32,800 nucleotides of DNA from Planctomycetota bacterium (GCA_003697045.1 RFGK01000058.1:1-32800); one strand, 5' to 3'. Shown: positions 21,007-28,281, numbered from the stretch's first letter. The notes: generated by a model from the letters alone, not told the origin. Made by a program: numbers and translations.

Positions 21007-21289
21007 GCCCAAGCGCAGCAGCCGTGCTGTCGAGATCGACGCCCACAGCGACAAATGACTTCTCGGACGATGCGTGGCCGGCCACGATTGTGACTTCTCG
21101 TGCGCGCAGATTCAGCGCTTTGGCAAGCAGTCCAGCAATGGCGCGGTTGGCCTTGCCGGCTTCGGGAGGGGCAGCAACGCGGATCTTCAGTCGATCGCCC
21201 AGCCGGCCGACGATCTGGTCACAGCGTGCACCCGGGACTGCCTTGACACGAATGATCACGCCCTGATCACAGCGTTCGAGAATGCTCAC
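20993..21289 (-). CDS. DUF167 (YggU) family protein
   Basis: GVIIRVKAVPGARCDQIVGRLGDRLKIRVAAPPEAGKANRAIAGLLAKALNLRAREVTIVAGHASSEKSFVAVG. Confidence 0.85.
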   Translation of the reverse strand: MSILERCDQGVIIRVKAVPGARCDQIVGRLGDRLKIRVAAPPEAGKANRAIAGLLAKALNLRAREVTIVAGHASSEKSFVAVGVDLDSTAAALGLSSD

Positions 21290-21380
21290 CGGTCAGGATA
21301 TGCGTCCGAAAACCAGAAGTGCTGGGACTGCGTATCTGCTTGCGGTAGACTGTCCTTGCTCAAGGTCCGATGCGGAGGGG

Positions 21381-22973
21381 ATGATGTTTCAAAAGTGGAT
21401 GATGGCCGGGGCGCTGGTGTTGATCAGCATGCAGGCAGCAGCACAGCTTCGGCCCGACCAGGTGCTTGTGGTCTACGACTCACGCAGGGCTTCCGAGCGC
21501 GACGTGGCGGAGTTTTACGCAGGTTCGGCCAAGGTCCCCGGCGGCTCGGGCACGGAGCCGGGTGTCCACCCGCAGGTCCATGTATTCAACTTGCAGACTG
21601 CCGGCGTGGCTGCGGCCGGACCCGGCAACATCAGCCACGATGACTTCATCACGCTGATACGCGATCCGATTCGCGCACATCTTGAGTCGGCCGGGCTCGC
21701 AAAGCAGATTCGATGCATCGTGCTCACCAAGGGCATGCCGCATCGGATTCAGGATTGGGACAATCCGGCGGTTGGAGATCAGCCGACCAACATGTTCCAG
21801 GAGTTCCTCATGGGCGACGCCACTTGTGCAAGCGTCGACAACGAGCTGGTCATGCTCTGGCAGGACCTCGGCGACACCGAGGCCGGAGCCCGGGGAGACA
21901 GCTTCTCTGACGGGCTGATCCTCAATCCCTACCGACATGCTTCCGTGCCCATCGGCAGCTTCACAAACATCCATAACCAGGTCAAGAAGCCCTGGGAACG
22001 ATCGGGCAGTTCGCTCGGACAATACTGGGCGATCGATCCGGCCGCTGCGCCCGAAGACCAGTTCACCCCGGGCGACATGATCCTCGTCGTGCGGCTCGAT
22101 GGACACACGGTCGACGATGTCAAGGCAATGGTCAATCGGGCGCAAGGACTCATCTACGACGTGAACTCGGCAGCCTTCGTCTTCGATGAAAAGGACTCCA
22201 ACGGCATTGCCGACACCGGTGCCAACGCCGAGCTGGACAACCAGACCGGGCCAACAAGGGTCGAAGATGATTTCGAATCGGCACGCGACGCAATCCTCTC
22301 TGACGGACGCTTTGATCCGGCGCACATGCACTACGACGCGCTGGCGGGCACGGACAACTGGATCGTCGGGCCCAACGTCGATTATGGGGGCGAAGGGCTG
22401 TTGGTCACAGACGAGTTGATCGTGCTTTCCCATTACGGCTCAAACCATTCTCAAGCGCCCAACGGCGCCGGGATCAGCGCCAACGACACTTATGCGGAAA
22501 GTTTCAACTATCAGCCCGGCGCGATTTTCAACACGATCGAAAGCTACAACGCCAGAGCGTTCGGCCCGCTGGGTACCCGGTTCAACCAGGAGCAGATTGC
22601 GGACTTCATCGCGGCTGGCGGTACTTTCGGCATCGGACACTGCTGGGAACCGTTTGCCTACACGGTGACGGATACCGCCCCTCTGATCCGCAACTTCGTA
22701 CTTGGAACGATGACCTGGGCCGAGGCTGCGTACACCGCCATTCCGGCATTGAGCTGGCACTACATTGTCGTCGGTGATCCGCTGGCCCGGGCGTCGCGAT
22801 CCTGCGATGACATCGATGGAAACGGACGCATCGATATCAACGATCTGTACGCCTGGGAGCAGAATCCCATCGATATCAACCGCGACGGCGTCGCCGACGC
22901 GACTGATCGCAGGCTCGTGGAGACAAGCGTGCGGGCAAGCGTGTTTGAGGATCTGGGCAGCCGCGAGCGGTAA
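21381..22973 (+). CDS. TIGR03790-like secreted protein with C-terminal dockerin-like region
   Basis: MMFQKWMMAGALVLISMQAAAQ signal; PDQVLVVYDSRRASERDVAEFYAGSAKVPGG, IRCIVLTKGMPHRIQ, ASVDNELVMLWQDL; C-terminal DIDGNGRIDINDLYAWEQ...DINRDGVADATDRRLVE. Confidence 0.7.
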   Translation: MMFQKWMMAGALVLISMQAAAQLRPDQVLVVYDSRRASERDVAEFYAGSAKVPGGSGTEPGVHPQVHVFNLQTAGVAAAGPGNISHDDFITLIRDPIRAHLESAGLAKQIRCIVLTKGMPHRIQDWDNPAVGDQPTNMFQEFLMGDATCASVDNELVMLWQDLGDTEAGARGDSFSDGLILNPYRHASVPIGSFTNIHNQVKKPWERSGSSLGQYWAIDPAAAPEDQFTPGDMILVVRLDGHTVDDVKAMVNRAQGLIYDVNSAAFVFDEKDSNGIADTGANAELDNQTGPTRVEDDFESARDAILSDGRFDPAHMHYDALAGTDNWIVGPNVDYGGEGLLVTDELIVLSHYGSNHSQAPNGAGISANDTYAESFNYQPGAIFNTIESYNARAFGPLGTRFNQEQIADFIAAGGTFGIGHCWEPFAYTVTDTAPLIRNFVLGTMTWAEAAYTAIPALSWHYIVVGDPLARASRSCDDIDGNGRIDINDLYAWEQNPIDINRDGVADATDRRLVETSVRASVFEDLGSRER

Positions 22974-23185: not shown

Positions 23186-24007
23186 GTGGGCGTTGACCTG
23201 CACAGGCTGTCAATACACACGATGACGACGCGTCCGTGGTCGTTGGCCGAGGCTGCGCAAGCCTGTGCGCGCGCAGGTGTCGGAGGCGTGTCGCCGTGGG
23301 TTGAGCACGTTGAACCGATCGGAGTGGGAGAAGCAGCGCGGATCATCGCCGATTTCGGACTGCGCGTGCCGGCGTATGTGCGGGGTGGTTTTTTTGTGCA
23401 CAGCGATGCGCATGAGCGCGCGCGGGCAATCGAACGCACCCGCCGGCTGATTGATGATGCGCGTGCACTCGGGGCAGAATCACTTGTGATCGTTGCGGGC
23501 TCACAGCCCGGCGTGGCGCTTGATGACGGTCGGGCGATGACTTGCGATGCGCTTGGTGTGCTCGTCGACCATGCAGCTGCGGCCGGTCTGAGACTGGCCG
23601 TTGAGCCGCTGCACCCGATGTACGCCGGCGATCGATCCTGTGTGAACACCATCGCCCAGGCGCGGGCAATCTGCGATCGCGTGGGGAGCCCCGTGCTCGG
23701 CGTCGCGGTCGACGTGTACCACGTCTGGTGGGACGACCGGCTCGAAGCGCAGATCGAAGCGCTCGGGCGCGAGGGTCGACTGTTCGGCTTTCACGTGTGC
23801 GACTTCAAGCCGGAACCTGCGCACCCGCTGCACGATCGCGGCTTGATGGGTGAGGGGTGCGCGCCGATTCGTGAGATTCGAGCGATGGTTGAGAGAGCCG
23901 GCTTTGACGGCATGATCGAAGTCGAGGTCTTCAACAGGAAGTGGTGGGCGACAGATCAGCGCACATTCTTGAGGGCGATCATCGAAGCGGCTCACGCACA
24001 CGCATGA
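23186..24007 (+). CDS. Sugar phosphate isomerase/epimerase-like TIM-barrel protein (start uncertain; GTG 23186 or ATG 23222)
   Basis: DLHRLSIHTMTTRPWSLAEAAQACARAGVGGVSPWVEHVE; putative metal ligands in AVEPLHPMYAGDRSCVNT, GVAVDVYHVWWDD, FGFHVCDFKPEP, GMIEVEVFNRKWW. Confidence 0.82.
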   Translation: MGVDLHRLSIHTMTTRPWSLAEAAQACARAGVGGVSPWVEHVEPIGVGEAARIIADFGLRVPAYVRGGFFVHSDAHERARAIERTRRLIDDARALGAESLVIVAGSQPGVALDDGRAMTCDALGVLVDHAAAAGLRLAVEPLHPMYAGDRSCVNTIAQARAICDRVGSPVLGVAVDVYHVWWDDRLEAQIEALGREGRLFGFHVCDFKPEPAHPLHDRGLMGEGCAPIREIRAMVERAGFDGMIEVEVFNRKWWATDQRTFLRAIIEAAHAHA

Positions 24008-24034
24008 CCTGCGCGAGCCTGTACCATACCCGGC

Positions 24035-25456
24035 ATGTCCGAGCGGATTCATCAAGGAGCGGATCGTCCCGAGCTGGAGCGCATTGGCAGACTCGAGCAG
24101 GCTTCGGGCATCGCACGGCTGTTCGGGTACCTGCGGCTCATGGGTCCCGGGTACATGCAAAGCGCAATGACACTGGGCGGGGGGACGGCGTTCTCGGCGA
24201 TTTTCGCAGGAGCCGCGTTCGGATATCGCCTGCTCTGGGTTGCGCCGGTGGGGATGTTGCTCGGAATCATTGTGCTCGCAGCCGTTGCGCACCAGACGCT
24301 GAGCACGGGGCGTGATCCCTTTGAAGCCATGAAGCAGCACGCCGGCTCGTTCTTCGCGTACGGCTGGGGCCTTGCGGCGATCCTGTCGTCGATCATCTGG
24401 CAGTTTGCCCAATACGCCCTCGCCGCCTCGATGTTGGTCCTGCTTGCGCGCGAGTTGGGATGGGAGAATGCACCTCGATGGGTGATGGGACTTGTCGCAC
24501 TGGTGTGGTGTGTGAGCGTCGGGTTGATGTACGACCGATCAGGCAAACTGATGCGCGTGTATGAAAACGTGCTCAAGGGCATGGTCTGGCTGATCATCGT
24601 GTGCTTTGCATTCGTCGTGATTCGTGCCGGCGTTCCCGAACCGGGCCAACTGCTCGCCGGGCTGATTCCCAACATTCCGCCCGATGCGACCCCCGCCGGC
24701 GGCGGCGAGCCGATCAGTTCGATCGTTGTTATTGTCTCCGGTCTGGCTGCTGCGGTCGGCGTCAACATGTTGTTTGTCTACCCGTATTCGCTGCGACGGC
24801 GAGAGTGGGGAAGGGAGCATCGCCGACTGGCGCGATACGACCTCATCTTCGGCATGTTCGTGCCTTATGCCATTGCGGCCAGCCTCATCGTCATCGCGTC
24901 TGCCAGCGTGCTGCACTTCGGTGAACCGGAGTTGTTTACGGGCGCCAAGATTCCGCCCGACCGTGTCGCCGAGATCCTTGCGTCTCCCGACAGACTCGGT
25001 CCTGTTGCTGGCGTGTGGGTGTTCGGGCTGGGGATCATCGCCATGGCGCTCAGTTCGATCACGATGCAGATGCTCTGTTCGGGCTTTGCGTGCGAAGTGA
25101 TGTTCGGCTGGAGGCGGGGTTCGCGTTTGCATCTCCTCGGCACGCTGCTGCCGGCAATCGGCGTGCTCGGGGCGGTCTTCTGGAGCGACGTTGCGATGTG
25201 GGTAGCTGTACCGACCAACATCATCTGCGGGCTGCTGATGCCGCTCGCCTACGTCGGGTTCATCATTTTGCAGCGAAGCCGTGCATACCTCGGCGATGAC
25301 CTGCCGACCGGCAGCCTGGCCGGCGCGTGGCTCGCCGGCATGGTGCTGTCAACGGTCGTATTGACAGCCGGCCTCGTGCTTGTCGTTGTACGCGAGGCTC
25401 CGGGATACGTGAGCAGGATCGCGCAGAGTCTGGCGCACTCGGAGTCGTCCCGGTGA
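24035..25456 (+). CDS. Divergent Nramp-like membrane transporter
   Basis: Multiple hydrophobic helices; Nramp-like MGPGYMQSAMTLGGGTAFSAIFAGAAFGYRLLWV, VNMLFVYPYSLRRREWGREHRRLARYDL, GVWVFGLGIIAMALSSITMQMLCSGFACEVMFG. Confidence 0.7.
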   Translation: MSERIHQGADRPELERIGRLEQASGIARLFGYLRLMGPGYMQSAMTLGGGTAFSAIFAGAAFGYRLLWVAPVGMLLGIIVLAAVAHQTLSTGRDPFEAMKQHAGSFFAYGWGLAAILSSIIWQFAQYALAASMLVLLARELGWENAPRWVMGLVALVWCVSVGLMYDRSGKLMRVYENVLKGMVWLIIVCFAFVVIRAGVPEPGQLLAGLIPNIPPDATPAGGGEPISSIVVIVSGLAAAVGVNMLFVYPYSLRRREWGREHRRLARYDLIFGMFVPYAIAASLIVIASASVLHFGEPELFTGAKIPPDRVAEILASPDRLGPVAGVWVFGLGIIAMALSSITMQMLCSGFACEVMFGWRRGSRLHLLGTLLPAIGVLGAVFWSDVAMWVAVPTNIICGLLMPLAYVGFIILQRSRAYLGDDLPTGSLAGAWLAGMVLSTVVLTAGLVLVVVREAPGYVSRIAQSLAHSESSR

Positions 25457-26634
25457 GTGATCCGACAGAACCACTGCTGAGTCTCCCGTTGCGCGATGAT
25501 CGCTGGGCCGCAGTTGAGGCGCGTCTTGATCCGCATGCTCCTGTGCCGCGGCTTGTCTTTGCAGCTGCCCACGTCGTGATGAAAGAGAGCTACGCGCGGA
25601 TTGGTCATGCCCCGGATCGACCCGGCCGACCCGCGGAAGTCCTTGAGCACATCGATTGGGAGGCAACGGCTCGCTTCCGCGTACACCTGGTTGCGCACGG
25701 ATTCGGCATCGCCGAAGCGATGGATACGGCCCAGCGCTACGAAATCGGATGGCACGCCGCGAGAGAGTTGATCGAGCGGTGCGGCCGCCTCGCGCCCGCG
25801 ACCGGTTTTATCGCCGGTGCCGGCTGCGACCAGCTCGAACATCTCGCTCGGGCGAGTGATCTCGTTGACGCCGTCGTCGAACAGTGTGCGTTCATTCGCT
25901 CGTGCGGCGGCTGGGCAATGATTCTCGCCATGCCCTGGCTGAGCATGCACAATGCGGACGAGCAAACGTATGTAGACGTTTACCGGGCAATCATCGAGCA
26001 GGTTGAAGGCCCGCTGTTCATTCACTTTCTCGGCCCCATGTTCATGCCGGAGCTTCAGGGCTACTTTCCCGGGCATGCGCTTCAGCGGATCATGGATCTG
26101 GACCCGGCCAAGATTCGAGGAATGAAGATCAGCATGCTCGATGCCGAACTCGAGCGCGTGTGGCGCAGGCGCCTGGCTGAGCGCGAGCAGATCATGCTCA
26201 CCGGCGATGATTTCCACTTCGGTCAGATGATGCTCGATGAAGATGTCGCCGGGGAGACGATGATCGATGGACGCCGGGCGGTATTCGGTGATGTGAGTCA
26301 CGGGCTGCTTGGAATCTTCGATGCCATCGCAGCCCCGGCGTCGATCGCCCTGCGCGCGCTGGGTACAGGAGATCGTGACTCATACACGCGCATCATGGAT
26401 GCGTGCGAAGAGTTGGGGCGTGTGGTGTTCGAGGCGCCCACGAAAAACTACAAGGCCGGGCTTGCGCTGCTGGCATACCTCAATGGGTTGCAGGACAACG
26501 CGATGCTTGTCAATCACGTGGAGCGAACGCGCTCGATCGAGCACTACCGGCGCGTGATTGAGGCTGCCAATCGTTGCGGCGCCATTGTCGATGCGCGGTG
26601 TGCCGAGTTGCGCATCCGGCGCTTGTTCGCGTGA
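25453..26634 (+). CDS. DUF993-like, dihydrodipicolinate synthase-superfamily protein (GTG start)
   Basis: FAAAHVVMKESYARIG...DWEATARFRVHLVAHGFGIAEAMDTAQRYEIGWHAARELI, FIAGAGCDQLEH, candidate Schiff-base Lys in KIRGMKISMLD; GTGA overlap with the upstream stop. Confidence 0.8.
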   Translation: MSDPTEPLLSLPLRDDRWAAVEARLDPHAPVPRLVFAAAHVVMKESYARIGHAPDRPGRPAEVLEHIDWEATARFRVHLVAHGFGIAEAMDTAQRYEIGWHAARELIERCGRLAPATGFIAGAGCDQLEHLARASDLVDAVVEQCAFIRSCGGWAMILAMPWLSMHNADEQTYVDVYRAIIEQVEGPLFIHFLGPMFMPELQGYFPGHALQRIMDLDPAKIRGMKISMLDAELERVWRRRLAEREQIMLTGDDFHFGQMMLDEDVAGETMIDGRRAVFGDVSHGLLGIFDAIAAPASIALRALGTGDRDSYTRIMDACEELGRVVFEAPTKNYKAGLALLAYLNGLQDNAMLVNHVERTRSIEHYRRVIEAANRCGAIVDARCAELRIRRLFA

Positions 26635-26660: not shown

Positions 26661-26693
26661 AAAAAAAAGCCCGCCGGGCCTGTTCGACCCGGC
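26661..26693 (-). terminator. Intrinsic terminator for the minus-strand FG-GAP gene
   Basis: Minus strand reads GCCGGGTC-GAACA-GGCCCGGC-GGGC-TTTTTTTT: 8-bp stem with one wobble, then an 8-T tract. Confidence 0.75.
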
Positions 26694-26745
26694 AGAGCTC
26701 GCGTCGCGGGCAAGAAGGATGCATGCCCGCTGGGGGAAGAGAGAG

Positions 26746-28005
26746 TTACGGGCAACCGGCGGAGAACACACTGAGGAACTCGAGAATATCGAAGAAGTTC
26801 AGTGTGCCGTCGGGAACGATGTCGGCTGCGGGATCGCCAGCCGTGAATGCACTGAGGAAGTCCAGGATGTCGAAGAAGTTGAGATCGCCATCGCCGTTGA
26901 AGTCGGCAGCACACGGCGGAATGCCCGAGTCTGCGTTGAAGTAAATGGTGGTGTTGTCCGAGTCGCGGTTGGGGATGGCCATGTCGGGGCTCAGGTTGCC
27001 GTCGAGGTCGGCGATCCCGATGCGCTGCGGGTTCAATCCTGTTGCAAGGATGGAAGCCGCCCCGAATGTGCCGGCGCCGGTATTGGCGAACACTGCAGCT
27101 GAGTTGCTCGCCTGGTTGAGGCAGACCAGGTCGATGGCACCATCCATGTCAAAGTCGGCGTTCGCAATTGCATCGGGGTTCATGCCGCCCGTGGCATAGG
27201 GGGCCGGTGCGCCAAACGTGCCTCCGGCACTGAGCCACACGGAAACAAAGTTACCCGCCGTGGCTGCGATGTCGGCCATGCCGTTGCCGTCGAAGTCCCC
27301 GGAGGTGATGCCCGACGGCCGATTGTTGAAGTTCGGCGTGAGAGAGGCGAAAAGTGTGAATGTCCCGCCCGTATTGGTGTAGACCTGCACGGCGCGGTCG
27401 TCGTGGGCTGCCACGATCAGGTCAAGGTCGCCGTCGCCGTCAACATCGCCCAGGTCGAGATGGCGCGGATCAGCACCGACGGGCATCGTCGAGGCGCTCA
27501 GCACGCTGCCGATGTTTGAGAGTATCGTCACCGTGTTGTCGCCGCGGTTGGAACTGATGAAGTCGATTGTGCCGTTGCCGTCGACATCGCCTGCGACCAG
27601 GTCGACCGGTTCAGAACCCGTCGCGGCCGACGAGCCGGCAGCGAAGAAGCCGCCCGTATTGATGTAGACCTGTGCCTGATTGACGTTCTTGAGCGCCACG
27701 ACGAGGTCGGGGTCGCCGTCGCCATCGACATCGGCCGCCTGAAGGGCGCCGGCTCCCGTGCCGGCGCCGGTAAAGATGTTGACCGGTCCGGTGAAGACAC
27801 CGCCGGTATTTGTGAAGATGCTGATCTTGTTGGGGTTATCGGTGGTGATGGCAAGATCGTTGTCGCCATCGCCGTCGAAATCGGCAGCGGCGACGCCGTC
27901 GGGCCGCTGTGGCGTGGCGATCGTACTCGGCGCGTTGAACGTGGGTGCCGCGGCAGCAAGCCCGGCAAGAGAGATCAATGTCAATGTGAATACGCTGCGC
28001 TGCAT
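26746..28005 (-). CDS. Secreted FG-GAP/VCBS repeat protein with GC-type dockerin-like C-terminus
   Basis: Signal MQRSVFTLTLISLAGLAAAAP; repeated DFDGDGDNDLA/DVDGDGDPDLV; C-terminus CAADFNGDGDLNFFDILDFLSAFTAGDPAADIVPDGTLNFFDILEFLSVFSAGCP. Confidence 0.87.
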   Translation of the reverse strand: MQRSVFTLTLISLAGLAAAAPTFNAPSTIATPQRPDGVAAADFDGDGDNDLAITTDNPNKISIFTNTGGVFTGPVNIFTGAGTGAGALQAADVDGDGDPDLVVALKNVNQAQVYINTGGFFAAGSSAATGSEPVDLVAGDVDGNGTIDFISSNRGDNTVTILSNIGSVLSASTMPVGADPRHLDLGDVDGDGDLDLIVAAHDDRAVQVYTNTGGTFTLFASLTPNFNNRPSGITSGDFDGNGMADIAATAGNFVSVWLSAGGTFGAPAPYATGGMNPDAIANADFDMDGAIDLVCLNQASNSAAVFANTGAGTFGAASILATGLNPQRIGIADLDGNLSPDMAIPNRDSDNTTIYFNADSGIPPCAADFNGDGDLNFFDILDFLSAFTAGDPAADIVPDGTLNFFDILEFLSVFSAGCP

Positions 28006-28281
28006 GCTGTGAGCTCCTTTTCTTCCTTCTTCCTCGGGGCAATCCGCCCCTGCATGTCTGAGTTGCCCGGTTCCAACAGGGCGTTCGTGTCTGGCACAGG
28101 TGATGCAACATCCATGCCAAAGCGAAAACCACACCGAATCGTGTTGAAACGACTATTTCGCGTGGACGCAATATGTGTTTGCGCGCTGCCCTGTACACTC
28201 TGGCCAAAGCACTGGCCACGCGCTCGACCAACAGATTGACTACCTCAGGAGTATCAAGTCTTGTGGGTCGCGGATCGGTGG

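Follow-up and report, generated by a model that had tools for sequence, protein, structure and literature searches.

A candidate undescribed catabolic system in a planctomycete: isomerase-like, divergent Nramp-like, and DUF993 genes as part of a five-gene unit

Pairs of Gfo/Idh and PF01261-type proteins carry out oxidation followed by β-elimination in the degradation of levoglucosan and of glycosides (PMC10066097, PMC10628242). In addition, an Nramp-family protein, PxpT, is needed for 5-oxoproline use by C. glutamicum (PMC13274462), and Mn2+ import has been reported for its homologue YcsG (PMC10448178). Here, we analyzed a stretch of 32,800 nucleotides from a Planctomycetota bacterium (GCA_003697045.1 RFGK01000058.1:1-32800; the whole stretch is referred to as the window), in which three plus-strand genes encode a xylose-isomerase-like TIM-barrel protein (ISO, PF01261; 23186–24007), an Nramp-like transporter with a LeuT fold, from a clade that has lost the metal ligands (PF01566; 24035–25456), and a protein of family DUF993 (PF06187; 25453–26634) with a TIM barrel like those of dihydrodipicolinate synthase (DHDPS) and NAL. 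An earlier note, made from the sequence alone, had proposed these genes as a three-gene operon and a candidate undescribed catabolic system, a status that our analysis upholds. These genes form the 3′ part of a unit of five, ENO-GFO-ISO-Nramp-DUF993, in which ENO is an enolase-superfamily protein and GFO a Gfo/Idh/MocA protein. It is moderately likely that this unit is an operon for uptake and catabolism of one organic substrate, probably carboxylated and polyhydroxylated (i.e., a hydroxy or sugar acid).

To find partners of the three genes, we combined protein searches across planctomycete genomes with tblastn runs on retrieved neighborhoods. Among 350 genomes searched from the window's order, two members of the window's own family (G509 and G687) carry ENO-GFO-ISO-Nramp-DUF993 as a single same-strand run, which identifies the window genes as part of the longer unit; their ISO, Nramp-like, and DUF993 proteins are 61–75% identical to those of the window. 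In the window's genome (G000), the ENO-GFO half lies off the window contig, on contig C132, where ENO is truncated by the contig end and overlaps the GFO gene; the G509 and G687 proteins are 73–74% (GFO) and 44–54% (ENO) identical to these copies. The two contigs have GC contents of 0.619 and 0.622. The genes at 26746–28134 of the window and at L077:2–919, on two contigs, end in closely alike dockerin-like double repeats (NFFDILDFLSAF and DFFDVLAFLDDF), probably a lineage-specific surface-anchoring tail; because of these similar repeats and the equal GC, the window contig and C132 very likely come from one genome. The three co-directional genes of the earlier note thus stand, but the extent of the unit does not, GFO and ENO, on the other contig in G000, having been missed.

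The layout within the window was borne out by the sequence, with all three open reading frames on the plus strand. ISO starts with GTG and ends with TGA, an intergenic gap of exactly 27 bp (24008–24034) separates it from the Nramp-like gene, and the start codon of the DUF993 gene lies within the stop of the Nramp-like gene in a GTGA overlap (25453–25456). The family placements (isomerase-like, Nramp, and DUF993) likewise survived profile searches, in which all three proteins scored well above the curated Pfam cut-offs: ISO matched AP_endonuc_2 (PF01261) at 8e-41, the product of 24035–25456 matched Nramp at 9e-30 (104 bits; cut-off 29.8), and the product of 25453–26634 matched DUF993 at 1.5e-85 (288 bits; cut-off 24) over positions 26–377 of 382.

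DUF993 was found in 30 genomes of a 392-genome planctomycete sample. An Oxidored_FMN flavoprotein (OYE) was present at 25 of these DUF993 loci, accompanied by an Nramp-like gene at 21 of the 25 and by ENO at most of them; the usual order is ENO-OYE-Nramp-DUF993, one OYE occupying the slot of GFO and ISO. The Nramp-DUF993 neighborhood is conserved at 21 loci in this sample, and at 11 further loci in the window's order, a conservation that agrees with the proposed grouping. The idea that the three genes are chance co-directional neighbors could draw on their sporadic presence in the genus, including their absence from G392 and G393, but the same gene order in two other genomes and the recurrence of partner pairs in several phyla refute it, and we regard it as extremely improbable.

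Among the loci examined, none contained both OYE and GFO/ISO, and neither GFO (E ≤ 1e-30) nor ISO (E ≤ 1e-10) was found anywhere in the OYE-type genomes searched. The OYE consists of the FMN-barrel domain alone, with no match to a Pyr_redox domain. Within the window's order, family f4 carries ENO-OYE-Nramp-DUF993, and family f1 carries ENO-GFO-ISO-Nramp-DUF993. In the DUF993 tree, the window protein falls within the OYE-type clade with full support, though its gene context is GFO/ISO; the window's family therefore bridges the planctomycete (OYE) and the actinobacterial/proteobacterial (GFO/ISO) forms. Hence, the isomerase that had been proposed as the partner of DUF993 is present here but is not obligatory, as OYE stands in for dehydrogenase and isomerase at most planctomycete loci. 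We tentatively suggest, at somewhat less than even chances, that one OYE-type flavoenzyme is interchangeable with a NAD-dehydrogenase/isomerase pair (a non-homologous two-for-one replacement) and that the metal-ligand-less Nramp clade is a dedicated organic-acid importer, both in an undescribed catabolic route. The exchange between OYE and GFO-ISO represents a natural experiment that constrains the possible chemistry.

At six loci of family f22 (L035–L039 and L051), ENO-OYE-Nramp-DUF993 lies inside a cluster with genes for a proline racemase, a DAO-type oxidase, a 2Fe-2S/Pyr_redox flavoprotein, and DHDPS, as well as periplasmic-binding/ABC genes, which looks like hydroxyproline catabolism. Hydroxyproline(-betaine) catabolism was rejected as a general answer, since the other loci did not show these additional genes as conserved partners. 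GFO orthologues were found in 31 of the 392 planctomycete genomes, with ISO adjoining at most loci read (L226–L245). Nearly all of these genomes are without DUF993 and without DHX, a distant DUF993-like protein described below; GFO-ISO is therefore a module in its own right.

A scan of named genomes yielded 80 DUF993 loci, 66 of them outside planctomycetes and acidobacteria. GFO and ISO were both present at 59 of these 66 loci, a count that is redundant, as most are from Streptomyces. The GFO-DUF993-ISO arrangement occurs in Actinomycetota, Pseudomonadota, Chloroflexota, Gemmatimonadota, and Deinococcota; the co-occurrence of DUF993 with this type of isomerase in Actinobacteria, which the earlier note had mentioned, is thus confirmed. 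ENO is also present in Harenicola and Bradyrhizobium (ENO-GFO-DUF993-ISO), and acidobacterial loci show OYE-DUF993; among the loci examined, only those of planctomycetes had an Nramp-like partner. On plasmids of Rhizobium, Janthinobacterium, and Sagittula, DUF993 and an isomerase occur with acyl-CoA dehydrogenase, GMC oxidoreductase, and either ABC-transporter or CoA-transferase genes, and the DUF993 module therefore serves in more than one wider context. Loci L063–L070, on rhizobial and other plasmids, combine DUF993 with varying sets of acyl-CoA dehydrogenase, SDR, GMC oxidoreductase, aldehyde dehydrogenase, enoyl-CoA hydratase, CoA-transferase, and glycerate kinase genes, so that the DUF993 step probably also belongs to a further, wider pathway.

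The three partner enzymes differ in how closely they resemble solved proteins. ISO belongs to the orthologue group of S. meliloti SMc04130 (PDB 3qc0/3ju2) and matches 3ju2/3qc0 at 6e-66 to 8e-66; of its metal-site residues (E/D/H/E), E140, D176, and E245 are invariant and H203 nearly so among 14 members, and these four residues are expected to be metal ligands. GFO, in which both the Rossmann and the C-terminal domain of the Gfo/Idh/MocA family were found, forms a single tight group across phyla (54–59% identity to the copy of the window's genome), and its nearest solved relative is PDB 3oqb (6e-210). Its top NCBIfam matches, levoglucosan dehydrogenase (67 of 650 bits) and inositol 2-dehydrogenase (76 of 355 bits), fall below the equivalog cut-offs. 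ENO shows the acid/base and metal-ligand pattern typical of the enolase superfamily (KxK / DxN / EQP / DE / K..K, the KxK being on β-2), with K129-K131, D163, E199, D226/E227, and K249/K252 invariant in 19 rows; it belongs with the MLE-like members, having a lysine on strand 6 like those of the muconate-lactonizing type. Its profile and structure matches are weak (MR_MLE_C, 3e-9; PDB chloromuconate cycloisomerase, 2e-4), and it is remote from anything solved.

The DUF993 protein has the (β/α)8 fold of DHDPS and sialate lyase. Its AlphaFold2 (AF2) model has a pLDDT of 93.6, its sequence matches PDB 4dnh at 7e-54, and Foldseek retrieved 4dnh first, followed by NAL/DHDPS structures (probability 1.00; TM of target 0.70–0.80). 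Alignment identified the family's invariant motifs AEAMDTAQR, K225, GDD, and S282 in the window protein. In the DHDPS/NAL superfamily, the Schiff-base lysine sits on the sixth barrel strand (β-6). K225 lies on the sixth strand in the model, is invariant in 24 DUF993 rows, and aligns with the lysine of DHX bridge proteins; from this position, it is predicted to be the Schiff-base lysine. K225 was placed by strand position and via the DHX proteins; no profile-profile alignment was obtained between DUF993 and six near-identical DHDPS homologues, a set that is too narrow.

DHX represents a small family between DHDPS and DUF993 (L062:8976–10085, L061:8727–9683, L244, and L264), which adjoins GFO in each of the four genomes that showed it (G121, G274, G384, and G416) and replaces DUF993 in two f1 genomes (G384 and G416); one DHX protein gave matches to the profiles of DUF993 and of DHDPS alike. 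The possibility that DHX always substitutes for DUF993 in GFO-ISO genomes was rejected, as most such genomes have neither. The DHX alignment links GSLGEG (DHDPS-like), MDTGFG (DHX), and MDTAQR (DUF993), which indicates that the carboxylate-binding motif GxxGE and the catalytic tyrosine of DHDPS-type enzymes are altered in DUF993: MDTAQR, within AEAMDTAQR (residues 87–95), stands in place of GxxGE, and H191 in place of the tyrosine. DUF993 has thus kept the DHDPS scaffold and probably its imine chemistry, with a differing substrate or outcome. The DHDPS/NAL superfamily includes dehydratases and deaminases besides aldolases. Consistent with both this diversity and the exchanged residues, DUF993 might, within the same catabolic operon, employ its Schiff-base lysine for dehydration, decarboxylation, or hydrolysis without being a C–C lyase; we consider this possible but unlikely. 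Against it, several proteobacterial DUF993 loci have glycerate kinase genes nearby, which would suit cleavage to a C3 product, although this is only suggestive.

The Nramp-like protein combines an Nramp fold with the loss of its metal site. Both the PF01566 profile and the AF2 model (pLDDT 84; LeuT fold; top PDB match DraNramp, TM 0.82) link it to SLC11/NRAMP, but the DPGN of TM1 is replaced by GGGT (residues 48–51) and the MPH of TM6 by GVN (242–244). SLC11 metal ligands follow the motifs DxxN in TM1 and A/CxxM in TM6, and the Nramp-related Mg2+ transporters (NRMT) have DxxG in TM1 and TxxA/T in TM6 (PMC8806188); the window protein shows GGGT and AxxG instead, and the NRMT motif is absent from its clade as well, which lacks the Asp. 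The metal-ligand Asp, Asn, and Met are gone in 40 of 40 clade loci checked. The earlier note had left open whether the membrane protein imports the substrate or supplies the isomerase metal; as the ligands are lost throughout the clade, import of an organic substrate is favored and likely, while metal supply was rejected as the first choice. A divalent-metal importer (Mn2+ or Mg2+) feeding the metal-dependent ISO and ENO would agree with the Nramp fold and PF01566 membership, with the metal-site residues in both enzymes, and with the reported Mn2+ import by YcsG, which is Nramp-like and encoded in a B. subtilis catabolic operon (PMC10448178). We nevertheless judge this role improbable: TM1 Asp and Asn and TM6 Met are replaced at all of the 40 loci, whereas the binding-site Asp is described as universally conserved in SLC11, including the Mg2+ branch (PMC8806188), related clusters have organic-acid or sugar importers instead, and clade members without DUF993 adjoin GHMP-type kinase genes at some of their loci.

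These related importers are TctC/TctA in Harenicola and an NMT1-type ABC system in Bradyrhizobium, and because these systems are found there, the Nramp-like gene appears to fill the importer slot; MFS or sugar ABC genes adjoin DUF993 at other loci. Of six loci with a clade member but no DUF993, three (L107, L108, and L111) have a GHMP-type kinase gene next to it, and at L111 a Gfo/Idh gene adjoins as well. A diverged Nramp-like form of about 500 amino acids, with an insertion of about 60–80 residues, is encoded at L052–L055 on the strand opposite DUF993 and OYE. An Nramp-fold protein between two catabolic enzymes, which the earlier note had called unexpected, is indeed present but has a precedent in PxpT/YcsG in 5-oxoproline operons (PMC13274462). 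If the clade does import organic acids, proteins annotated by default as metal transporters would be misannotated in many genomes.

Enzymes of the enolase superfamily work at the position beside a carboxylate, and those with the DHDPS fold use 2-oxo acids as substrates. These habits, together with the known chemistry of GFO/PF01261 pairs, suggest a scheme of import, oxidation, elimination, and imine cleavage. The Nramp-like permease would bring the substrate in, and GFO would oxidize a hydroxyl with NAD(P). ISO, as a metal-dependent TIM barrel, could then catalyze isomerization or β-elimination of the resulting ketone, and ENO might abstract the proton beside the carboxylate, with subsequent elimination or rearrangement to a 2-oxo-acid-like intermediate. 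Finally, DUF993 would form a Schiff base via K225, followed by retro-aldol cleavage or dehydration to central metabolites. Alternatively, the substrate might be a neutral glycoside or cyclitol, degraded by oxidation and β-elimination in the style of levoglucosan or C-glycosides, with no carboxylate; GFO and PF01261 pairs do work in this way (PMC10066097, PMC10628242), the best sub-threshold NCBIfam matches of GFO are to inositol 2-dehydrogenase and levoglucosan dehydrogenase, and several DUF993 genes on plasmids have sugar-type ABC transporters nearby. This alternative is unlikely, however, given that ENO and DHDPS-fold enzymes normally use carboxylates and 2-oxo acids and that TctC/TctA, a transporter typical of carboxylates, is found in the ENO-containing Harenicola cluster.

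Some observations weigh against the proposed five-gene operon. The operon is split into two loci in G000, either truly or through misassembly, and the gene set is absent from the same-genus genomes G392 and G393, both of which were searched. GFO-ISO pairs occur in many planctomycetes without DUF993 or DHX, so that partnership among the five genes is not strictly obligate. Lastly, with the GxxGE motif and the β-5 catalytic Tyr absent from DUF993, a pyruvate-type aldolase step is not assured.

The genes on either side of the three appear unrelated to the operon: a Pfam search with the upstream gene (21282–22973) gave no match, and the downstream convergent gene on the minus strand (26746–28134) encodes an FG-GAP repeat protein. 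A consensus scan found weak evidence for a terminator-like hairpin (26667–26696, minus strand) between the operon and this convergent gene. Foreign origin by composition was rejected, as GC and GC3 of the three genes match those of their neighbors.

Close homologues of ISO, DUF993, and GFO are encoded in the SMc04130/SMc04132/SMc04133 region of S. meliloti (PDB 3qc0, 4dnh, and 3oqb), to which the depositors assigned no function. A search of open-license papers for DUF993/PF06187, the PDB codes, and the locus tags returned one proteome table, in which SMc04132 and SMc04133 appear together (PhaR; PMC12542648), and nothing on function; no publication on this gene system was found among these papers. 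DUF993 is thus a family with a solved structure and no function in the literature found, though it is common in soil bacteria (Streptomyces and rhizobia), and its fixed partner set turns this orphan family into a testable pathway.

Compared with known systems, DUF993 resembles DHDPS/NAL aldolases and dehydratases (e.g., the 2-keto-3-deoxy-acid aldolases in non-phosphorylative Entner-Doudoroff routes) in its TIM barrel, its β-6 lysine, and the logic of dehydrogenase, dehydratase, and aldolase, but differs in MDTAQR for GxxGE, His for Tyr, about 100 extra residues, and the uncharacterized state of the family. The system shares with PxpT/YcsG and PxpABC an Nramp-family permease encoded alongside catabolic enzymes, the two Nramp clades having been compared by fold match; no 5-oxoprolinase-type Pfam family was matched in the subset of neighbors profiled. 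DUF993, ENO, and the Nramp-like protein set the unit apart from the levoglucosan (LgdA/LgdB1/LgdC) and A. tumefaciens GlycDH/AtOGE pathways, for which none of the three has been described, and GFO scores far below the equivalog cut-offs of LgdA and IolG. The unit nevertheless resembles both pathways in that an NAD-dependent dehydrogenase is coupled to a TIM barrel of the xylose-isomerase-like type (for Lgd, PF01261), and the levoglucosan cluster likewise includes an importer (PMC10066097, PMC10628242).

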